This document shows, in pieces, positions 546 through 20,352 of a DNA stretch of 20,402 nt. Each line of letters starts with the position of its first letter. The first letter of the stretch is position 1. The notes below the pieces were generated by a model. The model made no database searches and was not told the origin of the DNA. It saw nothing but the letters and a program-made list of their open reading frames with translations. The position numbers and the translations under genes were made by a program. The stretch is from a virus: positions 1 to 20,402 of IMG/VR virus record IMGVR_UViG_3300031673_000602; one strand, 5' to 3'.

Positions 546-2267
546 TTACAATCTAAAGATATGAAAATTCATATGAGAAACAGTTATTGTTCCTGTATTG
601 TCTGCTCTAAATTTTATTTTTACTATATCGCCTGTGTTTAAAAATAAAATACCAGAATTACTGCTATTGCCAACATCGCCCCCAGTGCCTATCTTTCGTT
701 GAGTTTCTATCTGAGTTGCCTCTACATCATTAACAAATACAGAATGATGAATAATAGTGCTAATTGTTCCGTGTGTATAGCTAGAGGAGTTACATATTTT
801 ATAATATCCTGACGTTGTAGTTGTTATCGTAGAATCTGTTAACGTAGTGTTAATAGTTAAATCCGTTTGAAACTTTCTAAATGTATAATAAGTATCCGCC
901 ACTCCTATTGACAGAGTACTATCTCCATCAACGTATAATTGACCTATGTATTGCGGTGCAACTATTTTTTTCTCAAATATAATACTATCATTTGGGGAGG
1001 TTATTTTTTTAGTTATTACAGAATCAGCATACATTGCAGGGGTTACTACTTTTTCATTAAAATAAAAAGGTATATCACTTAACCCAGAATCACATAATAC
1101 ATGCAATGATTTTAACCCTCCGCTTATTTGACCTATGTCTAGTAATGAGTTAGCTCCTGTAAAAGGGTCTATATCAATTGCCGGTGATGATGCTGTTTGA
1201 TTTAGTCTAATTCCAATACCTCCATTAGTAGTGCAAGATGAAACAAAAGAGGCTCCCGATGTACTTGTATTTTCGATAGCTATCATAGCCCCATTCCCAC
1301 CCAATAAACCATATATTCCAGTACCATCAGAAGGGCTTTCTATTTTTATCCCAGAAGCTGGATTCCCTGCATTATTAATTAATAGACCTGTTGAGCTACC
1401 ATCTGCAACATCTATAACAATTGATTTAGAATAATTTGAAGTTACATGTAGCGCAGTGTCGCCGATTGACGATGTTAATTTTAACGTATTTAAATTATAA
1501 GTAAAATTAGAACTACCTCCACTAGTGTCGTTTACTTCGTATAACACTGCGCCGGTTGGCATATATTGTAAACTAATATTCCCTGAATTTAAAGAAATAC
1601 TAGCAATACTATCTTCAATCATACCACCAACATAAGACACATGAGTTAAAGATAATGCTGTTAAATCTTGATAATCAGCATAATATTTTAAACCTGTCTG
1701 GGAACCTCCGGCTTTATAGTCTCTAAATATGTTATCTGTAGCATTCATGGAAAGTATACCACCGCCAGGACTAGTATTTGTTCCAAATGAACTAGTTATT
1801 GTACCGCTTAATTCTAAATAATTCGGATATACCCCAAAGTTATTTACCCCAGAGTTAGCCCCAATAAATAAATTCCCTGTTATTCCGTCAAAGTTTAAAG
1901 TATTTCCATCAAGTTCAATTGAAGTACTTTCTATTAATGTATCGCCCCATTTAACATCATTACCATCTCTTACTAATCCGTTGGTGAAATTTAACGTTCC
2001 AATTGAATTTGTTACATAGGTATCATTTACTAATGTTCCTGAATAAACGCCAGTTATTACACTATCTTTTAACTCAATAGATGTTATAGCAAATGTATCG
2101 GCTGTTATATTAAACGTAGTATCTGAAGATAACGTCCATATACCACCGCTATATATTAACGAAACAGTATCATTATTTTGAACAGCATTAAACCCTTTTC
2201 GTATAGTGCTTTGAGAATAAACACTTACACTTATAAGTGCAATTAATAAGATTAATATTTTTTTCAT
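546..2267 (-). CDS. Large tail fibre-like protein with N-terminal signal peptide and C1q-like tip (573 aa)
   Basis: A long repetitive Ser/Thr/Asn/Gly-rich protein typical of fibrous phage appendages. The start chosen is the ATG at 2267, inside a TAATG overlap with the upstream stop; an ATG 24 bases earlier would only add eight residues (MGRTNHKV) in front of a perfect signal peptide. Residues 1-19 (MKKILILLIALISVSVYSQ) have a Lys pair, a hydrophobic core and a Bacteroidetes-type cleavage end. The middle (about 20-450) is built of short beta-rich segments with repeated 'DS-x-I' and 'SGG' turns, probably a trimeric shaft. The last ~110 residues read as a C1q/TNF-like jelly roll: 'SGYYKIC', 'HHSVFVN', 'ILFLNTGDIVKIKF', ending 'MNFHIFRL'. 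It probably recognises the host surface. The signal peptide is odd for a virion protein; a phage-encoded exported protein is an alternative. Confidence 0.82.
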   Translation of the reverse strand: MKKILILLIALISVSVYSQSTIRKGFNAVQNNDTVSLIYSGGIWTLSSDTTFNITADTFAITSIELKDSVITGVYSGTLVNDTYVTNSIGTLNFTNGLVRDGNDVKWGDTLIESTSIELDGNTLNFDGITGNLFIGANSGVNNFGVYPNYLELSGTITSSFGTNTSPGGGILSMNATDNIFRDYKAGGSQTGLKYYADYQDLTALSLTHVSYVGGMIEDSIASISLNSGNISLQYMPTGAVLYEVNDTSGGSSNFTYNLNTLKLTSSIGDTALHVTSNYSKSIVIDVADGSSTGLLINNAGNPASGIKIESPSDGTGIYGLLGGNGAMIAIENTSTSGASFVSSCTTNGGIGIRLNQTASSPAIDIDPFTGANSLLDIGQISGGLKSLHVLCDSGLSDIPFYFNEKVVTPAMYADSVITKKITSPNDSIIFEKKIVAPQYIGQLYVDGDSTLSIGVADTYYTFRKFQTDLTINTTLTDSTITTTTSGYYKICNSSSYTHGTISTIIHHSVFVNDVEATQIETQRKIGTGGDVGNSSNSGILFLNTGDIVKIKFRADNTGTITVSHMNFHIFRL

Positions 2268-2602
2268 TACTTTATGATTTGTCCGTCCCATGTTCCTGCT
2301 TGTATTGCACCTCCAAAATCGAAGGTTAGTTGTGTATCTGATACCCTTGTCATTATAGCGTAAGCGTTTTCATATGTTCCATCAGGTCTACGTAGCGATG
2401 GTTTAGGGTAGCTTGTCGAAAAAGGTAGATTAACAGTTAATATCCCTGCAACCAAACTAGCGGTAGTAAATTGGAAATTATAATTATCATCTACATTGTT
2501 TTTAGCTTGTGCAAAATTACTATCTAGATCAGCTAGTAAATCGGCTGTTTTATAATTAGTACCTTCCGATATGGCTTTTGTTAATATGTCTATGTATGCC
2601 AT
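2267..2602 (-). CDS. Small tail fibre/appendage-associated protein (111 aa)
   Basis: The N-terminal half (MAYIDILTKAISEGTNYKTADLLADLDSNF...) is helical and could be an attachment or trimerisation segment. The C-terminal half is a beta domain ('SLVAGILTVNLPFSTSYPKPSL', then 'DTQLTFDFGGAIQAGTWDGQIIK'), of the sort seen at the ends of small phage fibre proteins. It is the first gene after the candidate promoter at 2607-2645 and it overlaps the large fibre gene by TAATG, so the two are likely made together. I do not recognise a named family. A fibre adaptor or chaperone role is inferred from position and composition. Confidence 0.75.
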   Translation of the reverse strand: MAYIDILTKAISEGTNYKTADLLADLDSNFAQAKNNVDDNYNFQFTTASLVAGILTVNLPFSTSYPKPSLRRPDGTYENAYAIMTRVSDTQLTFDFGGAIQAGTWDGQIIK

Positions 2603-2606
2603 AATA

Positions 2607-2645
2607 TTGTTTTTACAAATTTAATGTTTATTTATACTAAATAAA
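2607..2645 (-). promoter_or_regulatory. Candidate late promoter P2 for the fibre module
   Basis: Read on the minus strand there is a perfect 8-bp inverted repeat (TTTATTTA, spacer GTA, TAAATAAA; 2627-2645), three bases, then TAAATTTG (2616-2623), which fits the Bacteroidetes -7 consensus TANNTTTG. It continues as TAAAAACAA to 2607, five bases before the start codon at 2602. No TTG lies at the usual -33 distance; the palindrome sits there instead. The 14-mer ATTTGTAAAAACAA is shared exactly with the site at 20308-20321, which also has a palindrome upstream. An activator-dependent late promoter with a very short leader is inferred. AT-rich DNA makes chance palindromes common, so the exact extent is uncertain. 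Confidence 0.5.
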
Positions 2646-12691: not shown

Positions 12692-12732
12692 TTTCTTGTT
12701 GTTTCTTGTCATTTTTTACATTATTTTTACAT
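12692..12732. promoter_or_regulatory. Divergent intergenic region: phased direct repeats and a plus-strand promoter
   Basis: The 108 bases between the protease gene (starting at 12643, minus) and the small cassette (starting at 12752, plus) hold two pairs of direct repeats: TTTCTTGT at 12692 and 12702 (10 bases apart), and TTTTTACAT at 12713 and 12724 (11 bases apart). Spacing of about one helical turn fits sites for a regulator binding one face of the DNA. For plus-strand transcription, TTG (12699-12701), 20 bases, TATTTTTA (12722-12729) fits the Bacteroidetes -33/-7 pattern, except for A in place of the last G of TANNTTTG; the ATG follows 22 bases later. The minus-strand reading of 12721-12740 (TATATGTAAAAATAA) is a weak relative of the late promoters. 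All by eye. Confidence 0.45.
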
Positions 12733-12751
12733 ATAATAAATACTATTACAT

Positions 12752-12913
12752 ATGACAACTAAAGAATTATTTAATATGAACCAAGGAGAAATGTTAGAGG
12801 CTTATCATACTAATCTGAAAAGACAAAACGATATATTGAAAAGTAAGAATCTTTTTTTAAAAATAATAATTATTATTTTAGCATTAATTATATTATTTAT
12901 ATTATTTATATGA
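12752..12913 (+). CDS. Tiny tail-anchored membrane protein (53 aa)
   Basis: A short frame starts at 12752 (MTTKELFNMNQGEMLEAYHT...) and ends with TGA overlapping the next ATG (ATGA, 12910-12913), so the two are coupled. The first ~33 residues are polar and helical ('NLKRQNDILKSKN'); the last ~18 are a purely hydrophobic segment of Ile, Leu and Phe ('IIIIILALIILFILFI') with almost no residue behind it. That is a C-terminal tail anchor leaving the rest on the cytoplasmic side. It may be a membrane-associated moron product such as an exclusion protein, or a small lysis component. No family is recognised. Its placement ahead of a helix-turn-helix gene, with a promoter-like site upstream, supports it being real. 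Confidence 0.62.
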   Translation: MTTKELFNMNQGEMLEAYHTNLKRQNDILKSKNLFLKIIIIILALIILFILFI

Positions 12914-13104
12914 GTTCAATACATTTAAGTAAAAAAGAGCTACAAAATTACTTTGATTGTTCACGTCCTACAGCAAGGAGCAAAGAAAAAGCATATAAAG
13001 AAATAGCCGGGAAGAATGAAAAATTAGAACTTACTATTTATGATCTGTGCAAGTTGGATGATGTACCGATTGAGGTTGTAAAACAAAGATGCGGGAAAAT
13101 ATGA
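12910..13104 (+). CDS. Small helix-turn-helix DNA-binding protein (64 aa)
   Basis: Residues 7-30 ('SKKELQNYFDCSRPTARSKEKAYKEI') form a helix-turn-helix with the shape seen in excisionase/MerR-like and other Bacteroidetes phage regulators: a short first helix, 'DCS' turn, and a basic second helix. A C-terminal helix follows ('LTIYDLCKLDDVPIEVVKQRCG'). At 64 residues it is nearly only the DNA-binding domain. It probably binds the repeats in the adjacent intergenic region, but this is inference from proximity. It is coupled to both neighbours by ATGA overlaps. The target, and whether it activates or represses, are unknown. Confidence 0.72.
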   Translation: MSSIHLSKKELQNYFDCSRPTARSKEKAYKEIAGKNEKLELTIYDLCKLDDVPIEVVKQRCGKI

Positions 13105-13385
13105 AAGAAATAACTTTAAAAGGAATATTAAATTCTGTACATATATCTAAATATAATACAATTGCTTATTATTTAAGAGACTATAATGTTGTAGCTTGTC
13201 TTTTAACGAGTGGAAGATACCTAACAAAAGAACAATTCGAGAAAGAAGCTGAAGGAGTCTATTTAGGGGCTGAATTTATTAATGATAGATTAGAGCTGTA
13301 TGACGAACTTAAAAAGTATTTCGATTTTATGCACTCATCAAAAAACACAGAATTTATAAACGGCATAACCATAAATAAACGATAA
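13101..13385 (+). CDS. Unknown cassette protein (94 aa)
   Basis: Start chosen at ATG 13101 (MKEITLKGILNSVHISKYNT...), which overlaps the preceding stop by ATGA, like the preceding pair; an ATG at 13089 in the same frame would give four extra residues (MREN). The protein is mixed helix/strand, with 'YNTIAYYLRDYNVVACLLTSGRYLTKEQFEKEAEGVYLGAEFINDRLELYDELKKYFDFMHSS'. It has no signal peptide, membrane segment or catalytic motif that I can name. It lies within the opposite-strand cassette and presumably serves its function together with the helix-turn-helix protein. Function unknown. Confidence 0.68.
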   Translation: MKEITLKGILNSVHISKYNTIAYYLRDYNVVACLLTSGRYLTKEQFEKEAEGVYLGAEFINDRLELYDELKKYFDFMHSSKNTEFINGITINKR

Positions 13386-13388
13386 ACT

Positions 13389-13688
13389 ATGGAAAATACA
13401 GTAACTTTAAAAATAGAAGATTACGAAGCTTTGAAAAATGAAAGACGTGATTTAGAATCATCAATAGAAGTATTGTCAGATGAAAGGATTACAACATCAA
13501 TACAATACCCTTGGAAGGGCAGCTATTCAATTGTATATGAAGGCGATGATAAAGCCATTCAACTCGTAATTAAACAGCATGATGAAATAGAACTAAAGTA
13601 TGCAAAATTATTACAGATATTCAATATTCTGTCAAAATCCCTTTTATTCAAACTATTATTCAAGAAATATATTAATGAAGCTAAATAA
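13389..13688 (+). CDS. Unknown coiled-coil cassette protein (99 aa)
   Basis: A protein with an N-terminal strand and coiled segment ('VTLKIEDYEALKNERRDLESSIEVLSDER'), a central beta-like stretch ('YPWKGSYSIVYEGDD') and a helical end ('KHDEIELKYAKLLQIFNILSKSLLFKLLFKKY', basic and amphipathic; this last part could touch membrane). It starts three bases after the previous gene and ends 20 bases before the convergent tail terminator gene. Small proteins beginning with 'TLKIEDYE-x-L' are common accessory products of Bacteroidetes phages. I do not recognise a function. It is the last gene of the opposite-strand cassette. Confidence 0.66.
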   Translation: MENTVTLKIEDYEALKNERRDLESSIEVLSDERITTSIQYPWKGSYSIVYEGDDKAIQLVIKQHDEIELKYAKLLQIFNILSKSLLFKLLFKKYINEAK

Positions 13689-17515: not shown

Positions 17516-18492
17516 TCTGCTATATATGTTATCGTTGGTATCGTATTAGTGGGATAATCGTAATATCCGTCAAGTTCGTAGTTAGTGCCCATAGCCATAT
17601 AGCCTGCCCTAGCAACATACTGCTTACCTACCTCTAATAATACATCCGTAGCCGCCGACCATGCTTGCGTATCTGTTTTTGCATCGCAATTATCTATTGT
17701 TATATTTTCAACTCCCTGAGCCGCTTGTATAGCATCAACTAATCCGGCAATAGTAAACTTACTATTAAATGGTATTTGTTGAATGTAATTTGTTACTGCC
17801 GTTTCCACTGGTTTAATGCTTGTATCACTTAGTAGTTCCCCATCTGAATTAATAATCTGAGAATTATAAAATACTGTGCATGAAAACCTTAAGTTATCGG
17901 GGTCTTCACTTATAATTGTTATCTGTGTTCCCGCTGGAGCAATACAGTCCTCCGCGTAAGGTTGATTGCTTCCTACCATATATTGCTGAAAAGCGTTTAA
18001 TTGCGCAGTTGTTAACTTTGCCAGCGAACCTACTACACCTTGCGCTACTTTCAATAAGATAGCTCCATTAGTTACTGTTGCTGCTGCCTGTGTTACTATT
18101 TGCTTTGTATCGTCAAGCACAGAATAGCCATAATAACTATTATCGAGCCACTCTAAAGCATCGCCATACTGAAACTCTTTAGACACCTTAGCATACCATG
18201 GTAATTGCCCGTATTCCCTGTTTTCAATAGCATCGTCCACTTCTGAAACAAACGTATCATACAGACTTTCTTGCAACCATATAGCGTATGCAACGGCATC
18301 CATTACGAGCCGCCATATTGCGACCTTAGAGACACTCAATGACTTCGTAATAGTATTGGCTAGTAGCTTGAAATTTTCATATGTATATAAAGCCGCCCAA
18401 TTATCAGGATTAGGAAGTAACGTATCTAAATCCGTATTAGTTTCCTTTGAAGCCGTAAGCTGGTTATATATAGTGCTTAAACTACGTCCCAT
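17512..18492 (-). CDS. Baseplate J-like wedge protein (326 aa)
   Basis: The sequence has the J-protein layout. An N-terminal helical part contains 'WRLVMDAVAYAIWLQESLYDTFVSEVDDAIE'. A middle part ('GAILLKVAQGVVGSLAKLTTAQLNAFQQYM', 'CIAPAGTQITIISEDPDNLRFSCTVFYNSQI') precedes the helix 'KPVETAVTNYIQQIPFNSKFTIAGLVDAIQAAQGVENITIDNC' typical of the last J domain. The protein ends in strands 'RAGYMAMGTNYELDG'. It is shorter than P2 gpJ-type relatives in some parts, and the N-terminal third is unfamiliar, so the assignment is good but not certain. J forms the wedge that connects baseplate to sheath. It overlaps the portal gene by 11 bases, an unusual neighbour for a baseplate gene. Confidence 0.75.
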   Translation of the reverse strand: MGRSLSTIYNQLTASKETNTDLDTLLPNPDNWAALYTYENFKLLANTITKSLSVSKVAIWRLVMDAVAYAIWLQESLYDTFVSEVDDAIENREYGQLPWYAKVSKEFQYGDALEWLDNSYYGYSVLDDTKQIVTQAAATVTNGAILLKVAQGVVGSLAKLTTAQLNAFQQYMVGSNQPYAEDCIAPAGTQITIISEDPDNLRFSCTVFYNSQIINSDGELLSDTSIKPVETAVTNYIQQIPFNSKFTIAGLVDAIQAAQGVENITIDNCDAKTDTQAWSAATDVLLEVGKQYVARAGYMAMGTNYELDGYYDYPTNTIPTITYIAE

Positions 18493-19756
18493 TGTACATT
18501 GTTTTTAATTCTTTTAAGTTGCTTTGTGCTTTTATTGCTTTTGCTATTTCGTTCTCAGTAGTTTTCTTTTCAGATAATGCGAAACCTATTTTTTCGCTTA
18601 CTTCATCCACGTCCATGTTGAAATACATAGGTAAAATTTTCAATGCTTCAAGCTTATCGCTATACTTCATTGTATCTTCGCTTTTCCATCTGAAGAAATT
18701 GCCGTTTAATTTAAATCCGTATTTCAACATGCGAGGGATCAACTTATCTTGCACAATAAAGGCTATTTTTCTGCATATAGCTTTTTGTTTTTCTTCAAAT
18801 ATCCGCTCGCCAACTTCTGCGCTACCGACAAAGCTACGCTCATCAACTACCGATGATGAACCTATCAATAATTTGCTAATCTCATTATTTGAATATTCAA
18901 GATTGTCTTTAAATAAAGAAACCGTTCCGCTTGCTTTTGCTTCTACTAACATTACTTCGTCTTGTGGATGAATAACAGCCGATAGGCTACTGCCCATGTT
19001 AGTCATCATATTTTCCATGTTAGCATGCCTAGCCGGGTCTGTAATGTCTGTTTTTCCGATTCTCATCGGTATACCAAGCATCTCTCCAAACCTCCACCAA
19101 TAAATTAACATGGCTTTCTTGCCTAATGCATGGTAAGCAATTTTATCAAGCAATCCTAACTCGTAATCACAAAGCAATTCAATAAAATAGGGAGCTAATT
19201 TAGGGTCTGAATAATTCCATCCATCAACGCCTGTCTTGTAAGTACCATATACATACAGATTTTGTTTAATAAACTTCTTTTGAGGTATTACATATTCACG
19301 TTTTATAAGCTTTAAATCCTTGAACTGATCATCTTCAACGTCTCCGAGCTGTATTACTGAATATGGATAGTAAATAGTTTCTACGCATATATCTAGGAAC
19401 TTAAAAAACCATTCTGATTGAAATATCTCTGTTTTTTCTTCATCTACTTCATAGTTGCTATCAACTATTTCAAACGGTTTCGCTTTTATCTTGTCTTTTA
19501 TTACCTCGATTATAGCTGTAATGTGACTGTCCACCATTACATCATCGTAAGCTCTTATTAATCCTGTCCAATCTGGTAAAGATATGTCTAATGCCGCTAT
19601 CCTACCATTTTGCCAATCTTCAATATCCTGCTTATATGAGTCAAGATTATCGTATTCTATTTTTTTGTAGATATCAACGCTTTTAGGCATTTTTTTACTT
19701 ACCTCTGCCATTAACTTAACATTATCTACGTGAGCATTATATAGTTTAGCATTCAT
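18482..19756 (-). CDS. Portal protein, DUF935/Mu gp29-like (424 aa)
   Basis: The portal is the twelve-subunit ring through which DNA enters the head. The start is taken at ATG 19756 (MNAKLYNAHVDN...), since it lies in a TAATG overlap with the upstream stop; an ATG four codons earlier (MEFL) exists. Family features are 'LPDWTGLIRAYDDVMVDSHITAIIEVIKDKIKAKPFEI' (60-98), 'YYPYSVIQLGDVEDDQFKDLKLIKREYV', 'ALGKKAMLIYWWRFGEMLGIPMRIGKTDITDPARHANMENMMTNMGSSLSAVIHPQDEVMLVEAK', 'ISKLLIGSSSVVDERSFVGSAEVGERIFEEKQKAICRKIAF' and a helical tail. This is the DUF935 portal layout, with a length close to Mu gp29-type relatives. It follows the gp36-like connector. Confidence 0.92.
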   Translation of the reverse strand: MNAKLYNAHVDNVKLMAEVSKKMPKSVDIYKKIEYDNLDSYKQDIEDWQNGRIAALDISLPDWTGLIRAYDDVMVDSHITAIIEVIKDKIKAKPFEIVDSNYEVDEEKTEIFQSEWFFKFLDICVETIYYPYSVIQLGDVEDDQFKDLKLIKREYVIPQKKFIKQNLYVYGTYKTGVDGWNYSDPKLAPYFIELLCDYELGLLDKIAYHALGKKAMLIYWWRFGEMLGIPMRIGKTDITDPARHANMENMMTNMGSSLSAVIHPQDEVMLVEAKASGTVSLFKDNLEYSNNEISKLLIGSSSVVDERSFVGSAEVGERIFEEKQKAICRKIAFIVQDKLIPRMLKYGFKLNGNFFRWKSEDTMKYSDKLEALKILPMYFNMDVDEVSEKIGFALSEKKTTENEIAKAIKAQSNLKELKTMYNGT

Positions 19757-20301
19757 TAGAAATTCCAATCTTTTTGAGTTTCACTAGTATATGTTATTCT
19801 ATGCCCTTCTTCATCACCGTCAGAGTCTTCATTAACAGGGAGTATAATTGTGCGAGTTCCTTTTTGATAGGCTTTAAGATCATCCCGCACCCTGTCATAT
19901 TCTGACACAATCCATTTAGGGGTAATACGTGGCGTTATTCTACGAAATAGGTAGTATATAGCTATAATACAAGTGATATCCAAAATAGACTGATCCCTAG
20001 GGTCATCTATTTCAGTAAAATATGTTGTATTTGTAGGGTAATTAGCTGTTGATTCGAGTATGTTAACATAGTATTTTTCATTAAAATAAACGTTATCATT
20101 TACAACGTAGGTTACTGAATTATCATAAATAGTCATCTCAGTAAACACTAAATCAACATCATAACGGTGCTGGATATAGCTTTTAACCTCTTCAATTGCC
20201 TTTTTTATTACTATCTGTAGGGTGTAGTCATCACTGGCCATCTTATTTATGTCAGTGTCATTGAGCGTACTATTTAGATCGTTACGGATGATAAAAGACA
20301 T
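19756..20301 (-). CDS. Mu gp36/DUF1320-like head-tail connector protein (181 aa)
   Basis: The first gene of the operon. It starts MSFIIRNDLNSTLNDTDINKMA and has the helical first half of the DUF1320/gp36 family ('IVIKKAIEEVKSYIQHRYDVDLVF', 'SILDITCIIAIYYLFRRITPRITPKWIVSEYDRVRDDLKAYQKG'), then a loose C-terminal tail. In Mu and relatives gp36 is a head-completion or connector protein. The ~180-residue size is somewhat larger than the usual ~140, from a middle loop ('NYPTNTTYFTEIDDPRDQ') and the tail. It overlaps the portal gene by TAATG. A small terminase subunit was considered, but the helix pattern fits gp36 better. Confidence 0.82.
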   Translation of the reverse strand: MSFIIRNDLNSTLNDTDINKMASDDYTLQIVIKKAIEEVKSYIQHRYDVDLVFTEMTIYDNSVTYVVNDNVYFNEKYYVNILESTANYPTNTTYFTEIDDPRDQSILDITCIIAIYYLFRRITPRITPKWIVSEYDRVRDDLKAYQKGTRTIILPVNEDSDGDEEGHRITYTSETQKDWNF

Positions 20302-20305
20302 AGCT

Positions 20306-20352
20306 ATTTGTTTTTACAAATATACAACATTATTTATAATGATTATAAATAA
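20306..20352 (-). promoter_or_regulatory. Candidate late promoter P1 for the main virion operon
   Basis: On the minus strand a perfect 10-bp inverted repeat (TTATTTATAA, three bases, TTATAAATAA; 20330-20352) is followed by five bases and TATATTTG (20317-20324), which fits the Bacteroidetes -7 element TANNTTTG, then TAAAAACAAAT to 20306. No TTG sits at the usual -33 distance. The 14-mer ATTTGTAAAAACAA (20308-20321) is identical to that at 2607-2620. A start about seven bases after TTTG would leave only about ten bases before the first ATG at 20301. This looks like an activator-dependent late promoter with a nearly leaderless mRNA; the palindrome would be the activator site. Confidence 0.55.

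Follow-up and report, generated by a model that had tools for sequence, protein, structure and literature searches.

The window is an entire linear IMG/VR contig of 20,402 bp, which carries head genes of the Mu type: gp36 (PF07030), a portal (PF06074) and a Mu F-like protein (PF04233). The first gene of the head operon encodes the gp36 head-tail adaptor (19756-20301, minus strand; PF07030) and the second the Mu-type portal (18482-19768, minus strand; PF06074). The candidate promoter in front of gp36, site 1, is at the right end of the window, in the intergenic DNA between divergent genes. A second contig, L009 (IMGVR_UViG_3300031673_009020), shares the window's final ~125 bases and extends the phage by ~7.7 kb. 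Past site 1 it has five small plus-strand ORFs (L009:146-1366), followed by the terminase gene on the minus strand. As these five ORFs lie on the plus strand beyond the site, site 1 is taken to drive gp36, on the minus strand. The segment L009:146-1366 and window positions 12752-13688 are two cassettes of small plus-strand genes that interrupt the minus-strand late operon; in related Winoviridae, too, a reversed gene is found before the protease gene.

Read on the minus strand, site 1 has the order TTATTTATAATCATTATAAATAA-TGTTG-TATATTTG-TAAAAACAAATAGCT-ATG. The 23-bp dyad TTATTTATAATCATTATAAATAA (20330-20352, minus strand), a predicted Fur-type operator covering promoter positions -40 to -18, is an 11-1-11 inverted repeat with perfect 11-bp arms (20330-20340 and 20342-20352) around a centre of 1 nt. 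It is separated by 5 bp from the -7 element TATATTTG (20317-20324, minus strand), which conforms to the sigma-A type TAHHTTTG expected at -12 to -5 (consensus from PMC6847099), and the ATG of gp36 (20301) comes 15 nt past the -7 element. The intervening TAAAAACAAATAGCT (20302-20316, minus strand) would comprise the initial transcribed region and an A-rich leader, given the start-site distance in PMC6847099; if transcription starts 4-5 nt beyond the -7 element, the leader would be ~10-11 nt long. The arrangement of palindrome, five bases, -7 element and start codon given in the preliminary description was confirmed. Neither TTG nor TTTG was present near -33 at site 1, or at the second site proposed in that description (site 2, below). 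This lack is normal, since in F. johnsoniae the -33 element is weak and is outweighed by AT-rich motifs at -18 and -28 (PMC6847099).

A literature search with the dyad core brought up one match from bacteria: Riemerella anatipestifer has ATTTAGAATTATTCTAAAT as its Fur box, and purified Fur was used there in EMSA on promoters with a predicted box (PMC5609570). The 19-bp core of site 1 (20332-20350, ATTTATAATGATTATAAAT on the plus strand) agrees with this box at 16/18 positions, the best match in the window and a score that one of 150 shuffled windows equalled; it deviates in having TATAAT/ATTATA in place of the consensus TAGAAT/ATTCTA. Fur boxes are expected at iron genes, and the copy at site 1 precedes gp36; the literature search turned up no mention of such boxes at structural operons of phages. 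By its sequence, then, the site 1 dyad comes close to the Fur box of Flavobacteriales and is not Mor/C-like. Gene searches likewise gave no support to the earlier suggestion of a Mor/C-like activator: L009 and five further records, either related or bearing the motif, lacked a match to the Mor/C family PF08765, nor was the family found in a Pfam scan of the window ORFs, window and L009 together being part of the phage genome. A T4-like late promoter box, TATAAATA, was considered and rejected, as TATAAATA is part of the dyad.

For perfect dyads with arms of at least 8 bp located 2-6 bp before TANNTTTG, shuffling gives an expectation of 0.014 per window. The window itself has two, and none of 1000 shuffles contained two such sites. 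For the 11-bp dyad itself, P is ~0.0005 within 35 bp of intergenic composition.

The second of these sites (2616-2645) reads TTTATTTAGTATAAATAAA-CAT-TAAATTTG-TAAAAACAATATT-ATG. Its dyad TTTATTTAGTATAAATAAA (2627-2645, minus strand) has 8-bp arms and a 3-bp spacer, and lies 3 bp from the -7 element TAAATTTG (2616-2623, minus strand), which with the leader makes up the 14-mer shared with site 1 (2607-2620). Downstream is a 111-aa gene (2267-2602, minus strand) at the start of the distal late genes, which matched neither a PHROG nor a Pfam family. The two sites had been regarded as matching copies. They do have in common a TANNTTTG -7 element, the lack of TTG at -33 and the 14-mer, but the dyad of site 2 is another element: the TTATTTA/TAAATAA half-sites are 9 bp apart at site 1 and 3 bp apart at site 2, and on this spacing site 2 was rejected as a second copy of the site 1 dyad. 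Its Fur-box score is 13/18, a level that every shuffled window reaches. A single dyad repeated at several late promoters, as an activator would have it, is thus not seen in the window phage; it is seen in other phages of the class described below. Exactly two copies of the 14-mer, ATTTGTAAAAACAA, are present in the contig, both on the minus strand. The 14-mer was rejected as evidence by itself because the window holds 14 repeated 14-mer families (6.5 in shuffles) and because the core motif with the 14-mer is also present in L007, an unrelated 86-kb contig. A further sequence, ATATGTAAAAATAA at 12722-12735, resembles the 14-mer at 12/14 positions; it is ~80 bp upstream of the protease gene and has no proper -7 element.

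Portal and terminase relatives of the window phage were gathered and the DNA upstream of gp36 was compared among them. A -33-less TANNTTTG precedes gp36 in many Winoviridae-like phages. The junction of lotta8-1 consists of a terminator hairpin followed by TATATTTGGAAAAAATT; the corresponding elements are TAAGTTTGTAAAAAC in FPSV-S1 and TATATTTGGCAAAACA in L024, L025, L027 and L030. L018 has a canonical TTG-N19-TAACTTTG, and in L003, whose gp36 is 55% identical, terminase abuts gp36 with no gap. Judged from these junctions, a late promoter before gp36 is normal in the family, whose other members do not share the window's dyad, the relatives having a terminator with a -7 element, a canonical promoter or no gap. 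Single-sequence searches with portal and capsid gave no matches, and a genome scan using a portal alignment gave no confirmed relative. The known 28 kb of the window phage contain one Fur-type box, and none scoring at least 15/18 was found in 16 related or comparison records; the box is therefore an isolated acquisition in this phage family.

These junctions bear on the possibility that site 1 is a plain AT-rich sigma-A promoter whose palindrome arose by chance. Promoters usually combine a weak -33 element with AT richness at -18 and -28 (PMC6847099), and related phages manage at the same junction with -33-less promoters that have no dyad, or with the canonical form. We nevertheless consider this explanation improbable, as it has to accommodate the P value of the perfect 11-bp dyad, the 16/18 match to the Fur box, and a layout identical to that of a class that recurs in other phages.

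This class was found by searching 2.9 million viral contigs with a pattern derived from site 1, TTATTTANNNTNANNNTAAATAA-N5-TANNTTTG. The pattern matched 39 viral stretches, L009 among them, and several contigs contained at least two copies. The consensus of the class is TTATTTAGAATNATTCTAAATAA. The Riemerella Fur box forms its inner 19 bp, where the consensus is identical to the 9-1-9 palindrome ATTTAGAATNATTCTAAAT of the Flavobacteriales Fur box. Relaxed matching in the same contigs yielded further copies, 3-6 per phage in some; one phage (G014) has six, with gaps between dyad and -7 element of 5, 6, 6, 6, 5 and 8 bp, and another (G010) has four, all with gaps of 5 bp. The genes downstream encode portals (of different PHROGs), head maturation protease, major tail protein and terminase small subunit. 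Among sites outside the selection imposed by the query, 23 have gaps of 4-8 bp (15 at 6 bp, eight at 4, 5, 7 or 8 bp) and 19 form a second gap class of 11-14 bp. Real promoters avoid G in the NN positions of the -7 element (PMC6847099). G was found there in 2 of 78 class sites, leaving 76/78 without it, compared with 566 of 2275 (25%) of all TANNTTTG occurrences in the same DNA, so by composition the -7 elements of the class are real. In phage DNA the half-sites were spaced by N9 in 121 distinct dyads and by any other distance in 0-3, although the loci were fetched by N9 patterns and are partly selected for this spacing. When the dyad was scanned without requiring a -7 element, it proved common also in viral contigs that lack a close -7: among the matches listed, 63 of 67 distinct new dyad sites had none close by.

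These results support the assignment of site 1 to a recurrent class of late promoters in Bacteroidota phages, in which the dyad and a TANNTTTG -7 element stand at fixed spacing before structural operons. The new promoter class put forward in the preliminary description is upheld for site 1, with its 39 viral stretches and structural genes downstream, and not for site 2 with its 3-bp spacer. The case for the class draws on dozens of sites, spread over several head modules that are unrelated to one another, that for the window phage on one 16/18 box.

Several other arrangements were noted during these scans. At 13 sites (L054, L057, L064, L068, L080 and others) the ATG is located exactly 4 nt past the -7 element; with transcription starting 4-5 nt after the -7 element, this predicts leaderless mRNAs for late phage genes such as those for protease and tail protein. 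Dyads 11-14 bp before TACATTTG/TATATTTG (L156, L163, L171, L174, L184, L187, L203, L214, L215, L220) are mostly upstream of a ~220-aa protein, MAVKPEIIKARLKALFPKANLS. At L157, L159, L168, L172, L173, L182, L200, L213 and L223 the dyad precedes a gene, MRITIPTQLSEI/MKITIPSDLSEI, by ~40-80 bp without a TANNTTTG, and the region before this gene ends in TTATATTAATATG-like DNA, perhaps another type of promoter. L070:5441-5499 has the order dyad-N5-TATATTTG-dyad directly before an ATG, with both dyads perfect, an operator-like layout. In F. psychrophilum phage 6H (L262), one such dyad (1501-1529) is immediately upstream of an XRE regulator gene.

In bacteria the dyad is rare. Of 149 genomes from the F. 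psychrophilum family, 18 contained it, in 1-2 copies each, and a control with the reversed motif found none in the same genomes. The bacterial neighbours tested included four proteins carrying TonB-receptor domains, an imelysin, a DUF4856 protein and, next to hemA/hemC (a haem locus), a regulator of the AraC type. Where a -7 element was found near these dyads it was mostly 24-26 bp distant, not 5-6. The density of the dyad is 1 per ~4-20 kb in class phages as against ~1 per Mb or less in bacteria. Several copies per phage genome, ~100 times denser than in bacteria, are what would be expected if the dyad served mainly as a decoy: titration of host Fur would derepress iron uptake by the host, and control of the promoter would be secondary. 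Many copies, however, stand at a fixed distance from the -7 element of late genes and not just anywhere between genes, and of the explanations considered here we find the decoy the hardest to credit.

Among cultured phages, a motif search identified the Polaribacter phages Danklef and Freya (Forsetiviridae). Dyads in Danklef_1 precede portal (344), gp13 (7754) and gp18 (16014), with gaps to the -7 element of 1, 3 and 14 bp. Danklef_1 also encodes, just upstream of its terminase genes, a Fur-family protein, gp73, whose sole match among solved structures is ferric uptake regulation protein 2xig (E 0.0009). Alignment with flavobacterial Fur showed that gp73 keeps RVSRAT, in the DNA-reading region, and has lost the QHDH motif and the FCDPRI cysteine. 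In Danklef and Freya alike, late operons are preceded by the dyad and the genome encodes a Fur relative lacking metal ligands. The other dyad-bearing phage records had no match to PF01475 at E 0.1 or 0.01, and a Fur profile built in this work gave no convincing match there; these phages would therefore have to depend on host Fur or some other factor. F. columnare MS-FC-4 has a second Fur-like gene, C6N29_04015, 28% identical to Fur, within ~37 kb of DNA that is probably foreign (PMC9618737); it is possibly another phage-borne Fur.

We propose that site 1 is the head-operon promoter, a sigma-A -7 element with a Fur-type operator upstream, most likely repressed by host Fur; we give this reading a probability of about 0.58. 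Host Fur (or, in Danklef and Freya, the phage Fur relative without metal ligands) would bind the dyad and cover the -33 region, and a Fur dimer on -40 to -18 would block RNA polymerase. Metal-loaded Fur, when in excess, would then keep the late genes off; they would come on once iron drops or replicated phage genomes titrate Fur. Counted against Fur are the mismatches at 2/18 positions, the single box, the failure to detect a Fur gene in dyad phages other than Danklef and Freya, the -7 spacing of mostly 24-26 bp in bacteria, the many viral dyads with no -7 element close by and the Danklef gaps of 1, 3 and 14 bp. As to the direction of control, repression is likeliest, but activation by a dimer centred near -29 is also possible. 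The narrow 5-6 bp spacing favours activation, whereas the differing spacings in other groups and the L070 promoter with its two dyads favour an operator. Mu-style activation at site 1 is likewise possible, and the -40 to -18 position fits repression at least as well.

If the protein were instead a phage-encoded late activator unrelated to Fur, it would bind the dyad near -29 and replace the -33 contact, as C of Mu does. The narrow 5-6 bp gap found at almost every late promoter within a phage, without a -33 element, and the late genes downstream in the best-studied group would suit such a protein. The dyad, however, equals the Fur-box consensus and is found at bacterial iron genes; its spacing varies among phage groups (1-3, 5-6 and 11-14 bp) and does not preserve helical phase; a -7 element with dyads on both sides, as in L070, looks like an operator; and no Mor/C gene was found in the records searched. 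We regard this alternative as unlikely, though it is the most serious competitor to repression by Fur.

Late-transcription control in Bacteroidota phages is hardly known, and the bacteria concerned are widespread. It is conceivable, if somewhat short of an even chance, that several unrelated groups of these phages put their late structural operons under host Fur, and that one captured Fur, lost the metal sensor and runs the switch itself. If Fur gates late genes, assembly would be tied to host iron status or to titration of Fur by replicating phage DNA, and the timing of assembly may depend on an iron sensor of the bacterium or on the phage's version of that sensor. Among phage regulators, a Fur devoid of metal ligands would represent a new type. 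The idea can be tested in the existing cultured Polaribacter phages.

The late promoters of phage Mu, controlled by C/Mor, have only a -10-type element with an upstream dyad and serve late structural genes. Site 1 resembles them in all three respects, but no Mor/C gene was found in the known part of the window phage, and the dyad of site 1 has the sequence of a Fur box. With sigma-A promoters of Flavobacterium (PMC6847099, PMC9723704) it shares the TAHHTTTG -7 element, the AT-rich upstream DNA and the absence of a Shine-Dalgarno sequence; it differs in that a long and exact operator dyad stands where those promoters are loosely AT-rich. The Riemerella Fur box, a 19-bp palindrome equal to the core of the phage dyad, similarly overlaps a Bacteroidota promoter, yet bacterial copies are at iron genes and mostly 24-26 bp from the -7 element, whereas phage copies are 5-6 (or 11-14) bp from it at structural genes. 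Danklef and Freya have the same dyad before late operons as the window phage, and differ from it in their own Fur-family protein and in their -7 gaps. In enterobacteria, the phage-borne stx1 promoter is controlled by Fur. It too is a prophage promoter under host Fur, but it controls a cargo gene, whereas the boxes of the class described here precede structural late operons.
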